In this document: positions 45,570 to 54,726 of the stretch, piece after piece
Layout: every line of letters begins with the position of its first letter
Numbering within the stretch: position 1 is the first letter of the stretch
Source of the DNA: Bacteroidota bacterium
Lineage (GTDB): Bacteria; Bacteroidota; Ignavibacteria; SZUA-365
Assembly: GCA_014860565.1 (NCBI GenBank)
Contig: JACZJN010000165.1
Span: 1 to 64,000, forward strand
DNA: 64,000 bases
Direction of reading: 5' to 3'
Position numbers and translations under genes: made by a program
The notes under the pieces: model-generated
What the model was told of the DNA's origin: nothing
What the model saw: the letters and a program-made list of their open reading frames with translations, nothing else
The model's database searches: none

Positions 45570-48500
45570 ATGAACAGGCAACTCTCCTGGCTCAGACGGG
45601 AACAGCGGTGGCTCTATGCGACGGCGGTCTTACTCGTCATGCTGGCGCTGGTGTTCGCCGCACGGGAGTACTTTCTCCGCACAGTAGTAAGCGACTGGCC
45701 TGCTCTGCAGCGCGATGTCAATGAGGGACAGTCCCGGCTGATAACACGCCGCCTCAATGCACAACGCGATGCGCTGCTTCGGCAATGCGCCTCGATGATG
45801 AAAGATCTGCCTGGAGGCATGCGCGGCTTAACGGGCACGAATTCTGTCCGTGCGCGCACAGAAGAGCGTCTCATAGAAAGATCCGGCGAGGAGGATTACT
45901 CCTTTGAACTGCGCGACGGCAACGGCCGGCTGCGGGCCTTTGGCGGCGAGCCCATACTGCCGCGTGCCATCGCATCGCCACTCCCTGCACTTACCGTCCT
46001 CGACCGAACGCCCTACCTGCTGCTCGTTGCGACGCGTGCGGTTCAGGACAGCAGCGGGAAGCACGACGGATTTCTGTCGGTCGCGACACCGCTGGGGACC
46101 AATGTCCCGGTGAGCAGACGCTTTCTCAACAGCGAAGGATTTCTCGGAGCTCTTTCCTCCGAACTGGAACTTGAACTGAACTTCACACGCGAGCGTCCTG
46201 CCCAATTGCCTGCAGGGCGGCTGCTTCTTCCTTATACCGCGGAGCGCGACACACTGGGCTTCATTTCATTCGAGGGCATTGTCCGGGAAACCTGGCTCGC
46301 GCAGGTAACCGCGGAATTCAACCGCATCCTCCTGCTTCTGCTCCTCAGCCTCGTGATCATCATTTCGATCCCGCTTTTCCGAATCTACGCAAGCTGGCCA
46401 GGCCTGGCCGCTTCCGCGATCATGGTGCTCCACATCTGGGTTATCCGATTTGGAATGCTTTTCATAGGCTTCGCGGAGGGGGTGGTCCCCGCCTCTCTGC
46501 TCGATCCCTCCTATTTTGCTTCCACCTTCGGATGGGGGTTGAGCAGTTCACCGGCGGAATTGACACTCTCGGTCATGGCCTTGCTTCTTTCCGCCGTCGC
46601 TGTGTACCGCGTGACAACGGGACAGGATCAGCAGCGGTCGCACCGCGTCTTTTTACTTCTGCTGATCCCCGTATTCGTACTGCTTCCCTTCACCCTCCGG
46701 GGATTTGCCGCCTGCATACGCAGCTTCGTCGTGGATTCAACATTCAATTTCGATAGCATCGACAGCCTGCTCGAAGAGCCCATGCTTCTGCTGATGATCA
46801 GCAACAGTTACCTGCTTTCCCTGGCCCTGGGATTCGGCCTCCTGAGCATGTACCTCCTGGTCAAACGGGCACTGGGAAGCGTGCAGCACTGGATGGAAAA
46901 AGCGTTGTGGCTGCTTGGCGGCATGCTGTTATCCCTCGGCGCGCTTGTGCTGACAACGCACAGCCTTCTGCTCCCGCTCTGGGCGTATGCTCTGTACGCG
47001 ATCTGCTTCAGCATTCCCGTCATCCTCCGCATTCCTCCTGTGAAGGGGCGCTCAGGCACATTGCTGGCGCCATTGATGGCGACGGTGGTTTTCGGATCGG
47101 TGCTGACGATCATGTTTTTCGGACGCTCGATGGACGCCAAGCGATACAGTGAAATTGAAGCCATCGCGATCGATTTTGCCCGTCCGGTAGACGGCTGGTC
47201 GCAGGTGCTGATGGAGCAAACGCTCCAGTATGTATCCCGCACCACCGTCCCGTCGCTTCCCCGCAGGGGCGAGAGGGAGACGATCGATTACGAGGCAGCG
47301 TTCCGCATCTGGTCGGGCTCTCCTCTCAGCAGACTGCAGAACAACAGCGCCATCCTGTTGCTGGATTCGAGCGGTGCGCCCGTCTCCCGCTTTGCCGTCG
47401 GCAACGACCCCTTTCTTCTTTCCATGCACACACTGTCCGCGACCATCGCGCGTACGGAGGGAATCGTGCAGAGCGCCGACCGCCAGTTGGAGACGCGGGA
47501 AAGACGTTACTACCGCGGGTATACAGATATCGTCCCACGCAACCACGAGAAGCTTGTCGCAGTGGTGATCCTCGAGGCGCTCGATCCGATGGAAATGACG
47601 GGGCAAGGGATCGATCTCCTGCGGAACGCACCGGCAAAACTGAGTTCCGCACCCGAAGACCGTTTTATTATCTCGCGATTCCGCGGCAGCCACATGGTCC
47701 AGACATCGGACCGGACGCTGGAGCGTTCGATTCAGCTCCCTGCCGAAGTGCACGCCGCATTCGACGATGGCAACGAAACAGTGTGGAGCACGCTCCCCGT
47801 CGAGGGAGAACAGCTGCAGACCTATTTCATGCGTCTCCCCGAGCCAGGCCAGGAAGTGCTCGCCATCACGCGAGGGAAGTCTGACGCCCTGCTCGGCGCG
47901 TACCGGGCCCTGCGCATCGTCGTGCTTTATCTCTTCTTCAGCGCACTGATCTGGGTATTCGCCGCAATTGTCACCGGACGCCTTGGCGGCTGGTCGCGCA
48001 TGACCTTCGCGCGGAAGCTTCAACTGGCCCTGCTCGGTGTCGCGGCCATTCCCCTGCTGCTCATCTGGGTGACGGGTCGGGAGTTCGTGCTTGAAAACAC
48101 GCTCGATGAGATCGAGCGGCAAGTGAGCGATGATCTCGACGTGCTCCGCTCCAATATCCTCGAGCAGTTGCCCGACAGCATTCCCCTGAGCGACCTGGCT
48201 TCCCAGGTCAACGATCAATTGTGCCAGGAAATCCGCTTGCGCACCGGCAGGGATCTGAACATCTATCTCGGCACGGAGCTGCGCGCGACCAGCAAACCAG
48301 AACTCTATCACGTCGGGTTGCTCAACAACCGGCTGAATCCTTTCGCCTGGCTGCATATCGTACAGCGCGGACGCGACGCGTGGTTCGACACCGAGCAGAT
48401 CGGCGACTTTTCCTATCAGGTCGGCTACCGGGCGATCCGAGGCCCCGACGGGACACTGGCGGCCGTTATTTCCACTCCGACTCTATTTCAGCGCGAGCAG

Positions 48501-49430
48501 ATCGACGAAGGGTATACGCGCGCCTCGGCGACCATCTTCCTGTGGATCATCTTTATCGCACTTCTCGTGCTTTTGGCGAGCGCGGCGCTCGCGCGGCAGA
48601 TTTCGCGGCCCTTGAACGAACTGCTGCGCGCGACGCGCGATATCACCGCCGGCGACCTCGACCGCCGGGTGCAAGTCGCAGGCTCCGCTGAACTCGTGGA
48701 TCTCATGGATGCCTTCAACACCATGACGGCCCGTCTGCGTCGAAGCCAGGAAGAACTCGCCGCTGCCGAACGCGAGCTGGCTTGGAAGGAAATGGCGAAG
48801 CAGGTGGCACATGAGATCCGGAATCCCCTCACCCCGATGAAGCTCGCCGTGCAGCATCTGCAACGTGCCTGGCTGGACGGGGCCGAGCACATTGGCGATA
48901 TCTTCGATAAGGTGACGCGGACACTGATCGACCAGATAGAGAGGCTCTCGCGCATCAGCGACGAATTCTCCCGTTTCGGACGCATGCCGCGCAGAAGCAC
49001 GGCCCGGGTCGATGCCGGGGAAACGCTCGCCGAAACCGTGTCGCTTTTCGGCAGTCATGCCGAGGTGCATTTTTCCCTCGACATTGAGGCAAATCTGCCG
49101 CATGTGGTCGCCGACAGGGAAGAGCTGGCACGGGCATTCACCAATCTGCTGCGCAACGCAGTGCAGGCGATCCAGGAGCGCGGCACGATATCCATCAGCG
49201 CGCGCCGCGCCGCGCAGACACTGTGCATCAGTATCACCGACGACGGCAGCGGTATTCCGCCTGAACTTCTGCCGCGGATATTCGAGCCGAACTTCTCGAC
49301 GAAAACCGAAGGCATGGGACTCGGCCTTGCGATCGTCAAGAAAATCATTGACGATGCGGGAGGCGACATCGTCATTGAAAGCATGCCCGGAGAGGGGACG
49401 TCGGTCACTATCACCCTGCCGGCTGCCTGA
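45570..49430 (+). CDS. Very large NtrY-like membrane sensor histidine kinase
   Basis: A 1286-residue sensor kinase. One membrane helix is near residue 25, followed by an extracytoplasmic segment to ~245, then about seven helices (245-510), a second large extracytoplasmic domain (~515-785), two helices, a short loop, and a last helix near 990. A HAMP ('ALARQISRPLNELLRATRDITAGDLDRRV') comes next. The phospho-acceptor is His1081 in A-H-E-I-R-N-P-L-T-P-M-K-L, typical of NtrY. The ATPase boxes are N 'NLLRNAVQAI', G1 'DDGSGI' and G2 'GMGLGLAIV'. NtrY-type kinases signal to sigma-54 activators of the NtrX class. No response regulator gene adjoins it. The size and double sensory part are unusual. Confidence 0.92.
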   Translation: MNRQLSWLRREQRWLYATAVLLVMLALVFAAREYFLRTVVSDWPALQRDVNEGQSRLITRRLNAQRDALLRQCASMMKDLPGGMRGLTGTNSVRARTEERLIERSGEEDYSFELRDGNGRLRAFGGEPILPRAIASPLPALTVLDRTPYLLLVATRAVQDSSGKHDGFLSVATPLGTNVPVSRRFLNSEGFLGALSSELELELNFTRERPAQLPAGRLLLPYTAERDTLGFISFEGIVRETWLAQVTAEFNRILLLLLLSLVIIISIPLFRIYASWPGLAASAIMVLHIWVIRFGMLFIGFAEGVVPASLLDPSYFASTFGWGLSSSPAELTLSVMALLLSAVAVYRVTTGQDQQRSHRVFLLLLIPVFVLLPFTLRGFAACIRSFVVDSTFNFDSIDSLLEEPMLLLMISNSYLLSLALGFGLLSMYLLVKRALGSVQHWMEKALWLLGGMLLSLGALVLTTHSLLLPLWAYALYAICFSIPVILRIPPVKGRSGTLLAPLMATVVFGSVLTIMFFGRSMDAKRYSEIEAIAIDFARPVDGWSQVLMEQTLQYVSRTTVPSLPRRGERETIDYEAAFRIWSGSPLSRLQNNSAILLLDSSGAPVSRFAVGNDPFLLSMHTLSATIARTEGIVQSADRQLETRERRYYRGYTDIVPRNHEKLVAVVILEALDPMEMTGQGIDLLRNAPAKLSSAPEDRFIISRFRGSHMVQTSDRTLERSIQLPAEVHAAFDDGNETVWSTLPVEGEQLQTYFMRLPEPGQEVLAITRGKSDALLGAYRALRIVVLYLFFSALIWVFAAIVTGRLGGWSRMTFARKLQLALLGVAAIPLLLIWVTGREFVLENTLDEIERQVSDDLDVLRSNILEQLPDSIPLSDLASQVNDQLCQEIRLRTGRDLNIYLGTELRATSKPELYHVGLLNNRLNPFAWLHIVQRGRDAWFDTEQIGDFSYQVGYRAIRGPDGTLAAVISTPTLFQREQIDEGYTRASATIFLWIIFIALLVLLASAALARQISRPLNELLRATRDITAGDLDRRVQVAGSAELVDLMDAFNTMTARLRRSQEELAAAERELAWKEMAKQVAHEIRNPLTPMKLAVQHLQRAWLDGAEHIGDIFDKVTRTLIDQIERLSRISDEFSRFGRMPRRSTARVDAGETLAETVSLFGSHAEVHFSLDIEANLPHVVADREELARAFTNLLRNAVQAIQERGTISISARRAAQTLCISITDDGSGIPPELLPRIFEPNFSTKTEGMGLGLAIVKKIIDDAGGDIVIESMPGEGTSVTITLPAA

Positions 49431-49521: not shown

Positions 49522-49550
49522 TTATGGTTGAAAGATCAACAAAGGCATTC

Positions 49551-51182
49551 ATGTCATTTCTTGTTACTGCCCGGAAATACCGGCCTTCCACGTTCCAGGA
49601 AGTCGTAGCACAGGGACACGTCGTCAACACCTTGCTGAACTCGATTCGGCTGGGACGCATCGCGCATGCCTACCTGTTTTCAGGTCCGCGCGGAGTGGGC
49701 AAGACGACCACCGCTCGCATCTTTGCCAAGGCGCTCAACTGCCCCAATGCAAAGGAAGGCGAGCCCTGCAATACCTGCGACACCTGCGTGGAAATCTCCC
49801 AGGGACGCTGCATCGATATCATTGAAATCGATGGTGCGTCGAATAACGGCGTGGAGCAGGTTCGAACCATCCGTGATTCGGTCCGCTACATGCCGAGCCG
49901 GGAGAAATACAAGATGTACATCATTGACGAAGTTCACATGCTCAGCAAGGGAGCGTTCAATGCCCTGCTGAAAACGCTGGAAGAGCCGCCGGCGCATGCG
50001 ATTTTCATTTTTGCGACCACGGAACCGCACCGGCTCCCGCCGACCGTTATTTCGCGCTGCCAGCGTTATGATTTCCGGCGCATCGCTCTTGAAGATATTG
50101 TAGGTCAACTCAAGCACATCTGTCTGCTGGAGGGCATCGAGGCGGAAGATACGGCGCTCTTCGCCATCGCGCGTAAGGGTGACGGATCCATGCGGGATTC
50201 GGAAAGCATCTTCGACCAGGTAGTCGCATTCAGCGGCAACCAGTTGACGTACGAATCGGTACGGCACGTGCTGCACGTTGTTGACCAGGAAACGTTTTTT
50301 CAACTCACAGATCTGATCATCACCAATAATTCCAGCGGAGGGTTCGCTCTCGCCGAGGAAATCGTGATGAGCGGGTACGATATTCAGGATTTTCTTACGG
50401 GAATCGAAGAGCATTACCGCAATCTGCTGGTAGCACGGGCTACCGGCGATACGCGTCTCATCGAAGCCCCCGAAGACGTCCGCGAGCGCTATTCGCGTGT
50501 CGCGGAGCAGTTCAGCGAAGGCGATCTGCTGCGTTTGCTCAAAATCACAGCGCAGACGATGCAGGCAGTCAAATTCAGTCCCCAGCCACGCCTCAAGTTC
50601 GAAGTGGCGCTGATCGACATGATCAAGATGGATTCCACGATCGAGATCAGCACTCTTCTATCGAACATGGGGCAGGGCGGAAGCATCCCCCCGTCACGTT
50701 CGCCCGGGGAAAAGCATCCCGGCAGCACGTCTGCCGGACGTTCTTCCCAGCACTCTGCTCCCACGGCAGCAGCCGCGGCCACATCCGCCGTTGCGGTGAC
50801 GCCGAAAGCTGCCTCGACGGGCGAGCAGATGGAAACGACTTCCCCCGAGGCGGTACCGTCCCCGGTACGCTCTTCCGGCCCCTTCTCCGACGCCGATGCG
50901 CCCGGAAACGTGACACGGAAGACGAATGGCCGTACAGTGGACGCTGGGGAAACGTGGGAGACGCGTTTCGGCCCCCCGACGGGCATGCGTTCCGCCGTGA
51001 CGGATGTGACTGAACCACTGCGAGAAGCGGAAGAGCGGTTCCGACAGGCTCTGACTTCCGCGTCGCTTTCCGCCGCCGGGTCACATCGGGCCCAGCCTGC
51101 CTCTTCGCAACCTCTGCCGACCCATCCTATCGTACAGCTCCTCATCGACAAGCTCGACGCTGTGGTCCTGCCGAAACACTAA
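49551..51182 (+). CDS. dnaX: DNA polymerase III subunit gamma/tau
   Basis: A 543-residue clamp-loader ATPase. The frame is open nine codons further upstream, but the ATG at 49551 gives the usual 'MSFLVTARKYRPSTF' start. Walker A is G-P-R-G-V-G-K-T at 45-52, and zinc-binding cysteines are in 'CPNAKEGEPCNTCDTC' near 64-79. Walker B is 'MYIIDEVHML', followed by 'TTEPHRLPPTVISRCQRYDF' with the arginine finger. After domain III (~365) comes a Ser/Ala/Pro-rich linker and a short conserved C-terminal stretch. It loads the beta clamp. I see no A-rich slippery site of the kind that makes a separate gamma form in E. coli. Confidence 0.96.
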   Translation: MSFLVTARKYRPSTFQEVVAQGHVVNTLLNSIRLGRIAHAYLFSGPRGVGKTTTARIFAKALNCPNAKEGEPCNTCDTCVEISQGRCIDIIEIDGASNNGVEQVRTIRDSVRYMPSREKYKMYIIDEVHMLSKGAFNALLKTLEEPPAHAIFIFATTEPHRLPPTVISRCQRYDFRRIALEDIVGQLKHICLLEGIEAEDTALFAIARKGDGSMRDSESIFDQVVAFSGNQLTYESVRHVLHVVDQETFFQLTDLIITNNSSGGFALAEEIVMSGYDIQDFLTGIEEHYRNLLVARATGDTRLIEAPEDVRERYSRVAEQFSEGDLLRLLKITAQTMQAVKFSPQPRLKFEVALIDMIKMDSTIEISTLLSNMGQGGSIPPSRSPGEKHPGSTSAGRSSQHSAPTAAAAATSAVAVTPKAASTGEQMETTSPEAVPSPVRSSGPFSDADAPGNVTRKTNGRTVDAGETWETRFGPPTGMRSAVTDVTEPLREAEERFRQALTSASLSAAGSHRAQPASSQPLPTHPIVQLLIDKLDAVVLPKH

Positions 51183-51249: not shown

Positions 51250-53940
51250 ATGTTTATCAGTAGTATTTCCGGGATCGTCAGCGAGCTGACCCCGAACAAC
51301 CAGACGCGTTTTCAGTGCACCGTCACGCTCACCCTCCCGCTCGAGGAACTTTCCTCGATCGAGCCGGGTCGCCTGATCGCGACCGAAAACGTCTTTTCCT
51401 CAGCGCGCGACAAGCGCTACACCGTGCTGCAGATCGTAAACGTCTTCCCCGTCGCCCCGGAAGATAAAAGCGCAAAGCGCGGCAAGGCGATGCTCAGCTG
51501 CACCGCGACCCCTATCGGCCAGGAACTTCAGTACAAGTCGGCGAAAACAGGAATCGAAATCGTTCCCGCTGACACGTACCCGGCATTCGACGGCGCCGTT
51601 GAGGTGCTCGACGACGACACGACGCGTGACGTCATCCACCACATCGCACCCGACAGCCGCGTCGAGGACAACGGAACGCGGATCGATATCGGCACCTATC
51701 GCAGCAACCCGAACGTGAACGTGGGCATGGATGCCGCCACGCTTCTCCGCGGCAACGCCGTGGTGATCAGCGCACGGCCCCGCGCACGCACCACGATCAC
51801 CAACACCATCGTCCAGGCACTCCTGCAGGATGCCGACCATCCTGTACACATTGTCTACTGCGACGTCAACAACACCGGGACGATGAGCCTCGCACCCGTG
51901 CTCTCGCAGTTCCCGCGCTCGAGCGTGCTCTGCCTCAACGACAAATTCGTACCGGCCAGCGTTTTCTCGGCGATGAAGACTCCGGGTGACCGTTCCGCGC
52001 ATAAACGCGCCGTGCTCGATTATCTCGACATGATGATTCTCCCCTCGGTGCTCGAACAGCGCCGCCATGACTTCAGCTATGCGGTGTCGAACTGGATGCG
52101 CGAAAACCGCATCGCCATCTTCCGTCCGAATGAACAGACGGTGGACGGATTCATCAACGACATCCGCGTCGATATCCTCGACGGCGTCGATGAGGATGTC
52201 GAAGAGTACATCTCCGGATTGATGAACGGCATAGCCGATACCTTCCGCGGCGAGCGCTTCTCGGAAAAGAACACGCGCGACATGCTCGACATGGTGGAGG
52301 AATTCAGCCAGGAATCGAAAAGTCATTCGGCACGACGGACGCTCTATGACCTGAAGGCGGAAATCCAGTCGGTGTTCGAAACGTATTCGAAAGACATTCC
52401 CGGCGCGGCGCGCAGGTCGATGCAGGACGTGATCAACGAACTGAACAACGACACGCAGTCCAGTCTGCTCGTGGTGCAGGGGCAGAAACCGACAGACATT
52501 CTCCGCTTTGTCAACAACCTTACGCAGACGCTGATCGAAGAACGCCTCAAGCGGCTCAAGATTCGCACACCGGTGCTGTTCATCTTCAACAACGTCGACG
52601 AGTATGTCGGCCGCAACGGATCGATGACCCGGGAAGCCGGCTCCGATCGCTTCTACGAAGCGGTGCAGACCCTGCTGGCCAACGGCCGCCGCCACGGACT
52701 CGGGTTCTGCCTGACGCTCGAAAACGCAGCTGCGCTCGACAGGGCTCTTGCACGTCGTGTCCAGTCCTATTTCATCGGCCCGATCACATTCGTCGAGGAG
52801 CCTGCGCGCATCGCTGATCTTCTCAACCTGTCTGAAGATCTCGTCCGTCCCGCAGTGCGGTATGAGGACGGAGAATTCCTCTTCACATCGGCCGACTCGC
52901 CCTATCACCGCCGCGTCCCCCTCCCTGTCCTTGCGAAGAAAAACACCACGGTGATCCATGCCTGGCTCGATGATCTGATGGTCGAGCAGGAGCGCCGTCG
53001 CCAGGAATACATTGCGCAGGAAGAAGAGCGCAGAAAACGGGCCGACCAGGAGCGCGAGGAACGACGTCGGCAGCAGGAAAAAGCTGCCGAGGAAAAAGCC
53101 CGAGCGGATGCCGCCAGGGCCAAGGCCGAGGAAGAACGCGCGCTCGCCGAAGCGCAGAAGTACCCTGCGGGGAGGGACCTCGATACTCCGGATATGGATC
53201 CGATCGCAAAGGATGACGAGGGTGATCTGGATCTGGACCGCAAAGCATCCGATGCAAGCAAGTCCAGGGCCGCCAAAACCACACGTGATCGAAGAAAGCG
53301 TGGTGGACGCCGCGAGAAGGACGATGACCAGGATGCGGATGACGAGCAGAACGACGTTTCCCGCGATGACGCGGAAGCGGCCATGCAATCCGATGAACCC
53401 TTCGGCTACGACGCACCCGTGACCGCTGACAGCGAAGCGGAGGCACACGAGGAACCGGACAGCGATCATTCCATGCAGGAAGCTGCCACGCGGAAGGACG
53501 ATGGGCAGACACGGAAAACACCCCGTGGCCGCCGCGGCCGTGGGCGCGGAAAATCAGGGAAGAAAGACGCCGTTGCTCCTCCCGCAGCAGAGACGCACTC
53601 CGAAGAAAAACCGTCGCCCCGAAAAGAGACTCCCCCCAGCGAACCCGCACCCATCGCCTCGACCGGACGGACGCTGATTGTCGAGGATTTCGACCCGCAT
53701 GCCGGGAAACGCAGCGCAGACAGCACAGCCGATAGCGCAACCTCGTCTCGCACCGCGGCGGCAAAACCCGCGGAAGGCAGCGCTGACTCTGGCGAGGCCC
53801 CCAAGGCTCCCGCCAAAGAAGACAAGCCCGCTGAGGATAAAAAGAAAGCGGCCCGTCGCCCCGTACGGCGCCGTGGTACGCGTGGAAAGAAATCGGACGA
53901 AGGAAAAAAATCGGACGAAGGAAAGGGCTCCGAAGAATAA
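51250..53940 (+). CDS. HerA-like pseudo-ATPase with long charged C-terminal tail
   Basis: An 896-residue protein with no signal or membrane helix. Residues 1-70 ('ISGIVSELTPNNQTRFQCTV', 'GRLIATENV') resemble the HAS barrel of HerA translocases. 'GNAVVISARPRARTTITNTIVQALL' (168-192) sits where HerA has its Walker A, but S174-A-R-P-R-A-R-T181 replaces G-x4-G-K-S/T, so all Gly are lost and Lys becomes Arg. 'PVLFIFNNVDEYV' (441-453) fills the Walker B place with N447-N448 for the acidic pair. 'NGRRHGLGFCLTLENAAALD' (478-497) fits HerA's 'EGRKFGVGL..SQRP' block without the sensor Gln. A helical, then Lys/Arg/Asp/Glu-rich tail (~575-896) follows. Assignment is by my own alignment; a VirB4- or FtsK-like relative is the main alternative. 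It lies between dnaX and xth, 24 nt before the latter. Confidence 0.62.
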   Translation: MFISSISGIVSELTPNNQTRFQCTVTLTLPLEELSSIEPGRLIATENVFSSARDKRYTVLQIVNVFPVAPEDKSAKRGKAMLSCTATPIGQELQYKSAKTGIEIVPADTYPAFDGAVEVLDDDTTRDVIHHIAPDSRVEDNGTRIDIGTYRSNPNVNVGMDAATLLRGNAVVISARPRARTTITNTIVQALLQDADHPVHIVYCDVNNTGTMSLAPVLSQFPRSSVLCLNDKFVPASVFSAMKTPGDRSAHKRAVLDYLDMMILPSVLEQRRHDFSYAVSNWMRENRIAIFRPNEQTVDGFINDIRVDILDGVDEDVEEYISGLMNGIADTFRGERFSEKNTRDMLDMVEEFSQESKSHSARRTLYDLKAEIQSVFETYSKDIPGAARRSMQDVINELNNDTQSSLLVVQGQKPTDILRFVNNLTQTLIEERLKRLKIRTPVLFIFNNVDEYVGRNGSMTREAGSDRFYEAVQTLLANGRRHGLGFCLTLENAAALDRALARRVQSYFIGPITFVEEPARIADLLNLSEDLVRPAVRYEDGEFLFTSADSPYHRRVPLPVLAKKNTTVIHAWLDDLMVEQERRRQEYIAQEEERRKRADQEREERRRQQEKAAEEKARADAARAKAEEERALAEAQKYPAGRDLDTPDMDPIAKDDEGDLDLDRKASDASKSRAAKTTRDRRKRGGRREKDDDQDADDEQNDVSRDDAEAAMQSDEPFGYDAPVTADSEAEAHEEPDSDHSMQEAATRKDDGQTRKTPRGRRGRGRGKSGKKDAVAPPAAETHSEEKPSPRKETPPSEPAPIASTGRTLIVEDFDPHAGKRSADSTADSATSSRTAAAKPAEGSADSGEAPKAPAKEDKPAEDKKKAARRPVRRRGTRGKKSDEGKKSDEGKGSEE

Positions 53941-53964: not shown

Positions 53965-54726
53965 ATGAAGCTCGTTTCGTGGAACGTCAACGGCATCCGC
54001 GCCATCGTGAAAAAAAACTTCTTCGAGTACCTCGAAGGAACCTCTCCCGACATCCTCTGCCTGCAGGAGACGAAGGCTCATGAGGAGCAGCTCGATGAGA
54101 CCCTCATCACACCGCCAGGGTATTACACCTACTGGCATGCAGGGGAACGCAAAGGCTACAGCGGCGTGGCGACGTTCACCAAACGTCGCCCCACCGCGGT
54201 CCGCCGCGGCACGGAGATTCTCGCGATGGACACCGAAGGGCGCATCCTGCGCACCGACTTCGACGACTTTGCACTCTACAACATCTACTTCCCCAACGGG
54301 GGACGCGGCGAAGAACGTCTCAGGTTCAAGCTGGAATTCTACGACCGTATCCTCGAACATTTCGAGAAAGAACGGAAGAAAGGCATCCCACTCGTGATTT
54401 GCGGAGATGTCAACACCGCGCACAACGAGATCGATCTGAAAAACCCGAAGCAGAATGAAAAGACCTCCGGGTTCATGCCCATAGAACGCGCCTGGCTCGA
54501 CCGCATCACCGCGCTGGGCTACGTCGACACCTTCCGACATTTCCATCCCGACGCGGCGGACCACTATTCATGGTGGGATATGCGCACCCGAGCGCGCGAC
54601 AGAAACGCGGGCTGGCGCATCGATTATTTCATCGTGACGCCCGATTTCATTCCGCGCTGCAAGGACGCCTCCATCGAAATGGAAGTGACGGGCTCGGACC
54701 ATGCTCCGGTGGTACTCGAAATATGA
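53965..54726 (+). CDS. Exodeoxyribonuclease III (AP endonuclease, Xth family)
   Basis: A 253-residue exonuclease III. All EEP-family motifs are visible: 'MKLVSWNVNGIRA', 'LCLQETKA' with the metal Glu near residue 35, 'GYSGVATF', 'NIYFPNGG', 'VICGDVNTAHNEIDL' with D-x-N, 'SWWDMRTRARDRNAGWRIDYF' and 'GSDHAPVVLE' with the catalytic Asp-His. It cleaves DNA at abasic sites and has 3'-5' exonuclease and 3'-phosphatase activity. It has an AAGGA Shine-Dalgarno sequence and follows the HerA-like gene by 24 nt, probably in one transcript that ends at the strong terminator downstream. Confidence 0.96.
   Translation: MKLVSWNVNGIRAIVKKNFFEYLEGTSPDILCLQETKAHEEQLDETLITPPGYYTYWHAGERKGYSGVATFTKRRPTAVRRGTEILAMDTEGRILRTDFDDFALYNIYFPNGGRGEERLRFKLEFYDRILEHFEKERKKGIPLVICGDVNTAHNEIDLKNPKQNEKTSGFMPIERAWLDRITALGYVDTFRHFHPDAADHYSWWDMRTRARDRNAGWRIDYFIVTPDFIPRCKDASIEMEVTGSDHAPVVLEI

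Follow-up and report, generated by a model that had tools for sequence, protein, structure and literature searches.

Introduction

The closest described proteins are HerA DNA translocases of the DUF87/HAS-barrel type, known from the HerA-NurA, DUF4297-HerA and SIR2-HerA systems (8yhx, 8xav, 8zis and 4d2i), which gave the best fold and profile matches to the protein analyzed here. In HerA, ATP lies between subunits, and this is the premise of the interface proposal made below. In a characterised HerA, K157/S158 and E426/E427 make up the cis site, and R455/K456 act in trans from the neighbouring subunit as an arginine finger (PMC11291478). By residue counting along the 8xau sequence, R455-K456 fall in the GRKYG motif.

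The nearest precedent for an inactive relative is the DUF domain of EccC/EssC from type VII secretion, a member of the FtsK/HerA superfamily (PMC11154593). The EccC DUF is degenerate, a helix is extended into the P-loop position, and no ATP is bound (PMC11154593). A further analogue is delta-prime (HolB) of the DNA polymerase III clamp loader, a P-loop ATPase relative that has no ATP site of its own and has an arginine finger. No description of stand-alone, order-wide pseudo-ATPases of the HerA/FtsK superfamily was found in the open-access literature searched. Here, we analyzed such a candidate, named pseudo-HerA below, which is encoded in the window (the whole 64,000-nucleotide stretch).

Results and Discussion

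Gene and annotation

The gene and its two flanking genes are as follows.

49524 to 51182, + strand: dnaX, clamp-loader gamma/tau subunit (Pfam DNA_pol3_delta2 and gamma3; synteny)
51250 to 53940, + strand: pseudo-HerA gene, 896 aa (open reading frame and HerA homology)
53965 to 54726, + strand: downstream xth-type exonuclease III/AP endonuclease gene (Pfam Exo_endo_phos; synteny)

The 896-codon frame was intact, starting 67 bases past dnaX and ending 24 bases ahead of the exonuclease III-type gene, and it was single-copy in the window genome. Pfam, NCBIfam and PDB sequence searches with the window protein gave no significant match, so that its standard annotation would read hypothetical. The Pfam DUF87/HerA_C and NCBIfam models do not detect pseudo-HerA, in which it differs from HerA, and proteins of this kind are thereby left as hypothetical. 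As a separate observation, an open frame of 689 aa lies antisense to the gene (window 51400-53469, − strand), apparently as a side effect of codon composition.

Fold and profile comparison

Next, we compared pseudo-HerA with known proteins by structure prediction and profile searches. Two AlphaFold models were used, namely model 1 of the window protein (pLDDT 65.8, pTM 0.57) and model 2 of a 53%-identical orthologue (pLDDT 72.6). When 575 residues of model 1 were searched against PDB with Foldseek, HerA or HerA-type translocases filled the first 50 places (8yhx best, E 2.1e-14), and the alignments to HerA spanned ~570-600 columns. Similarly, the first 30 matches of model 2 were HerA-type (best E 5.7e-13), with all others far weaker. 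A clamp-loader AAA+ fold was not supported, as the fold matches of both models were HerA and not clamp-loader subunits. Model confidence was moderate (pLDDT 66 and 73; about 55-69 in the former P-loop region), and global TM-scores to HerA were only 0.3-0.4, indicating that the relative placement of domains in the models is unreliable.

The PADLOC HerA profile PDLC01055 matched residues 83-563 of the window protein colinearly (E 1.9e-8) and matched 12 of the 14 orthologues, with the best E-value (1.2e-15) in the order's other family. In a scan of the class with the same profile, the better-scoring pseudo-HerAs fell among the scores of genuine HerAs. Furthermore, hhalign of the pseudo-HerA family against same-class HerAs aligned residues 106-556 over 366 columns with a score of about 40.5, compared with at most 24.7 for 40 column shuffles and 18.7 for the reversed profile. 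A second HerA-like set (A3) gave a short, weak match only. Two domain features were recognized in the models.

51250 to 51567, + strand: beta-rich, HAS-barrel-like domain at the N-terminus, covering residues ~1-106 (strands present in both AlphaFold models)
51955 to 52443, + strand: long insertion of helices between strands of the core, residues ~236-398 (AlphaFold helices, much at pLDDT 80-92)

The N-terminal domain aligned to HerA in the models, where closure of the barrel was not inspected, and the insertion was the positional counterpart of the HerA helix bundle. Pseudo-HerA resembles HerA in domain order, in its RecA-like core with a long helical insertion, in the order and spacing of motifs, and in the GRKYG block, which reads GRRHG. 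As the fold search, the HerA profile HMM and the profile-profile alignment agree, the 896-aa protein is very probably a divergent HerA homologue; the resemblance to HerA that the initial annotation had proposed by eye held in all three.

The former ATPase site

The motifs of the 14 orthologues were then aligned with those of 45 HerA-type proteins of the same class, and they paired without gaps. Canonical motifs were intact in nearly all of the 45 (two are fragments and misaligned in places), whereas they were replaced in 14/14 orthologues, in the same way at the Walker A, Walker B and sensor positions.

51769 to 51792, + strand: former Walker A, S174-A-R-P-R-A-R-T181 replacing GxxGxGK[ST] (gap-free alignment to GSSGSGKS)
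52588 to 52593, + strand: acidic pair of the former Walker B, now N447-N448 (pairs with the E-E of FEEAH in HerA)
52717 to 52728, + strand: former sensor SQRP, now L490-E491-N492-A493 (motif alignment; E491 invariant)

Across all 14 orthologues, the former Walker A reads SA[RK]PRART, in which seven of the eight positions are invariant, with either Arg or Lys at position 176; the Thr is retained and the Lys is changed to Arg. F446-N447-N448-V-D pairs with HerA FEEAH, with N-N in every orthologue, and E491 replaces the sensor Gln in every orthologue. No GxxxxGK[ST] was found elsewhere in the protein on reading the sequence. In both models, at only moderate local confidence, a strand precedes the former Walker A, followed by two residues and then a helix; in model 1 the strand covers 170-174 and the helix starts at 177. 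As modelled, the two residues leave no room for a phosphate loop.

From these replacements we infer that ATP hydrolysis has very likely been lost in pseudo-HerA and that ATP binding has probably been lost as well. Nevertheless, weak nucleotide binding remains possible, given the retained Thr and the Arg in place of Lys. The initial annotation had read the Walker A place 174-181 as SARPRART and the Walker B pair as N447-N448, and both held as stated. Its change of the sensor from SQRP to LENA held too, at residues 490-493 instead of 488-491, two residues off. Its claim that all ATPase motifs are lost was slightly too strong, in that the Walker A Thr is kept, the Lys has become Arg, and the GRKYG pair is kept as GRRHG. 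It had also called the three losses independent; independence cannot be demonstrated, as each was already in place when the sampled families of the order split.

The pattern resembles that of the EccC/EssC DUF domain, where degenerate Walker A and B motifs are likewise conserved family-wide; pseudo-HerA shares with EccC DUF the helix, here predicted, that reaches into the P-loop place, and an Arg at the former site. In contrast, EccC is a membrane-complex protein with several ATPase domains, the DUF among them, whereas this domain is the only ATPase-like one of pseudo-HerA, which is stand-alone and encoded beside dnaX.

A less likely alternative is a non-canonical site, in which the Arg-rich former P-loop still binds a nucleotide, a nucleic-acid backbone phosphate or another ligand and, with no hydrolysis involved, functions as a sensor or switch. 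In its favour, R178, R180, T181, N447, N448, D450 and E491 are invariant in the orthologues, suggesting a defined site and not filler, and a Lys-to-Arg change with Thr kept is the mildest Walker A loss. Against it, both glycines that a phosphate loop needs are gone (Ser and Ala), a Pro lies inside, the model places a helix there, and the EccC DUF domains, which are comparable, do not bind ATP (PMC11154593).

Conservation and distribution

Orthologues were found in 14/16 genomes of the order, the window genome counted, with 52-91% identity over residues 1-575. In the other two (G002 and G012), neither pseudo-HerA nor dnaX was detected; because dnaX is also undetectable there, these genomes are taken as incomplete at the locus. 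Outside the order, neither the 294 class genomes nor the 395 phylum genomes yielded relatives, and only weak chance matches appeared. GTDB contigs held seven close relatives, all of the same lineage, and the closest public records were metagenome-assembled genomes named Ignavibacteria or Bacteroidetes. A mobile-element or phage origin was considered and rejected, since there were no IMG/VR or plasmid relatives, the distribution is vertical, and synteny is fixed. Pseudo-HerA is likely to be vertically inherited and restricted to a single order of Ignavibacteria-related Bacteroidota.

The gene is under strong purifying selection, with dN/dS of about 0.06-0.08 (pairwise dN 0.05-0.13 against dS 0.8-1.5). 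Most motif codons varied only synonymously, and both Asn codons (447 and 448) showed AAC/AAT variation. Eight-residue stretches with at least seven invariant positions started only at 174, 259, 439-443 and 479. Therefore, three of the four conserved cores (174, 439-443 and 479) belong to the former active site, namely Walker A, Walker B and the finger. Because few parts of the protein are as strictly conserved, the former active site has probably taken on a new function.

Decay of the gene, or damage to an otherwise normal HerA in one lineage, is all but excluded. Nothing speaks for it beyond the substitutions themselves, and these are common to 14 orthologues with full-length frames and a fixed position; we rejected it on the dN/dS of about 0.06 and the invariance of the substituted sites. 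The earlier proposal of a purposeful pseudo-ATPase was thus supported, and none of three outcomes that would have refuted it was met: the fold is that of HerA, no other P-loop is present, and no orthologue has intact motifs. Because the substituted sites share one order-wide state, we regard pseudo-HerA with high confidence as an order-wide pseudo-ATPase and not a damaged copy. It is best filed as a HerA-derived pseudo-ATPase rather than a HerA translocase, being a homologue that fails the ATPase-defining features: unlike in HerA, the Walker A, Walker B and sensor motifs are replaced throughout.

Arginine-finger block and candidate partners

One block of the former active site is kept.

52684 to 52707, + strand: GRRHGLGF 479-486, equivalent of HerA GRKYG, with R480-R481 kept (motif alignment)

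GRRHG was present in 14/14 orthologues, with R480-R481 invariant. Replacement of the cis residues beside an invariant R480-R481 fits either a subunit that serves the ATP site of a partner or an interface frozen without nucleotide. The former is an unlikely rival reading, in which pseudo-HerA is a hetero-oligomer partner whose R480-R481 finger reaches in trans into the ATP site of an active subunit, much as delta-prime serves DnaX in the bacterial clamp loader. The selective loss, where Walker A, Walker B and sensor are replaced whereas the GRKYG equivalent is invariant, speaks for it, as do the trans action of R455/K456 in a characterised HerA (PMC11291478) and the adjoining dnaX. However, a conserved active HerA-type partner was not found in the order when DUF87, HerA_C, NurA and the window genome's own HerA-like protein were searched. 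A strong DUF87 match (E 1e-8) was present in 2/7 order genomes tested, only one being an ordinary full-length HerA; HerA_C was found in 1/16 and NurA in 0/16 order genomes, and the HerA-like protein on contig C164 had a counterpart in 6/16. Also, the finger block may persist for interface reasons. This makes a hetero-ring with an active HerA improbable as the general mode. The likeness to delta-prime is a works-like analogy in DNA replication only, as delta-prime is AAA+ and not HerA/FtsK, and there is no evidence that pseudo-HerA binds DnaX. A dedicated nuclease partner such as NurA was not found either, which again differs from HerA; the adjoining xth encodes a general repair enzyme. If a partner exists, DnaX would be the first candidate to consider among the conserved proteins.

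Separately, the C164 protein (L017:1-1740, genome G000) is itself a divergent HerA-like protein with an intact Walker A (GMTGSGKT) and a patchy occurrence in the order.

Gene neighbourhood

At every orthologous locus examined, dnaX lay directly upstream of pseudo-HerA. In the main family, the order was histidine kinase, dnaX, pseudo-HerA and xth where the flank was long enough, and in genome G007 it was dnaX, pseudo-HerA and xth. In the second family (L083:2059-10512), it was dnaX, pseudo-HerA, a carboxymuconolactone-decarboxylase (CMD)-family gene, xth and polA. In eight sampled genomes from other families of the class, the neighbours of dnaX differed, and lon was directly upstream of dnaX in the four where the upstream gene was identified. 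The dnaX/pseudo-HerA arrangement is therefore particular to this order. Bacterial gene neighbours need not share a pathway, and in family f3 a CMD-family gene separates pseudo-HerA from xth, which limits what can be inferred on role from the dnaX-xth location.

Two further observations concern the neighbours. The L083:2059-10512 cluster has the appearance of a replication/repair grouping. The histidine kinase directly upstream of dnaX (window 45570-49430) is unusually long at 1286 aa, with a long membrane-rich N-terminal part of no clear family match, followed by HAMP-HisKA-HATPase.

Proposed role

Without ATP cycling, which is inferred, pseudo-HerA would not be a translocase. We propose that the Arg-rich former P-loop, N-N and E491 probably make up, together with the kept R480-R481, a subunit interface that is permanent and independent of nucleotide. 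On this proposal, pseudo-HerA would build a static ring, complete or partial, which holds DNA and serves as a scaffold. The location in a dnaX-xth(-polA) cluster may point to replication or base-excision repair. As a whole, this explanation, an ATPase-dead HerA serving as a static ring or scaffold in replication/repair, could as easily be wrong as right. Two of its parts are less secure: we lean slightly against a homo-oligomeric ring, which is inferred without direct oligomer evidence, and the case for a DNA replication/repair scaffold, inferred from location and ancestry with no DNA-binding or partner data, falls a little short of persuasive. The initial annotation had suggested a scaffold or ring partner in DNA processing; this stays inference only, and its ring-partner version is weakened by the absence of a conserved active HerA, HerA_C or NurA.

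The motor fold was probably retained for a task in DNA replication or repair that needs no motor; a concrete hypothesis of this kind follows from the gene cluster, and the case is testable. In a bolder reading, which is no more than a possibility, a HerA translocase ring has turned into a permanent nucleotide-independent DNA ring or scaffold working with DnaX, or with ExoIII and PolI. If true, one bacterial order would have a further core factor in its replication or repair.

C-terminal region

The part beyond the HerA-like body, a long Arg-rich tail that HerA does not have, contains the following features.

52975 to 53937, + strand: charged C-terminal region 576-896 (tail alignment and composition)
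53674 to 53709, + strand: short motif LIVEDFDPHAGK, LxIEEFDPxAGK in relatives (tail alignment)

Region 576-896 starts with an E/R/K-rich, likely helical stretch, followed by a low-complexity charged tail with recurring Arg-rich patches. Across orthologues, the tail contained 21-28% K+R and 16-28% D+E. The LxIEEFDPxAGK-like motif occurred in 9/13 full-length tails, only in the main clade of the family.

An RNA-directed scaffold is an unlikely alternative, in which the Arg/Gly-rich tail recruits RNA, the HerA-fold body works in RNA metabolism, and the dnaX location is incidental. Tail patches such as RGRRGRGRGK favour it; bacterial RNA helicases and RNases have RNA-binding tails that such patches resemble. 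However, characterised HerA proteins act on dsDNA (PMC11291478), and the dnaX, xth and polA neighbours encode DNA enzymes. Under the preferred reading of a static DNA ring or scaffold, the C-terminal helical stretch and Arg-rich tail would bind nucleic acid and the LxIEEFDPxAGK motif would bind a partner; both functions are possibilities inferred without binding data. As an observation apart from this proposal, LIVEDFDPHAGK stands out as conserved in an otherwise variable charged tail.
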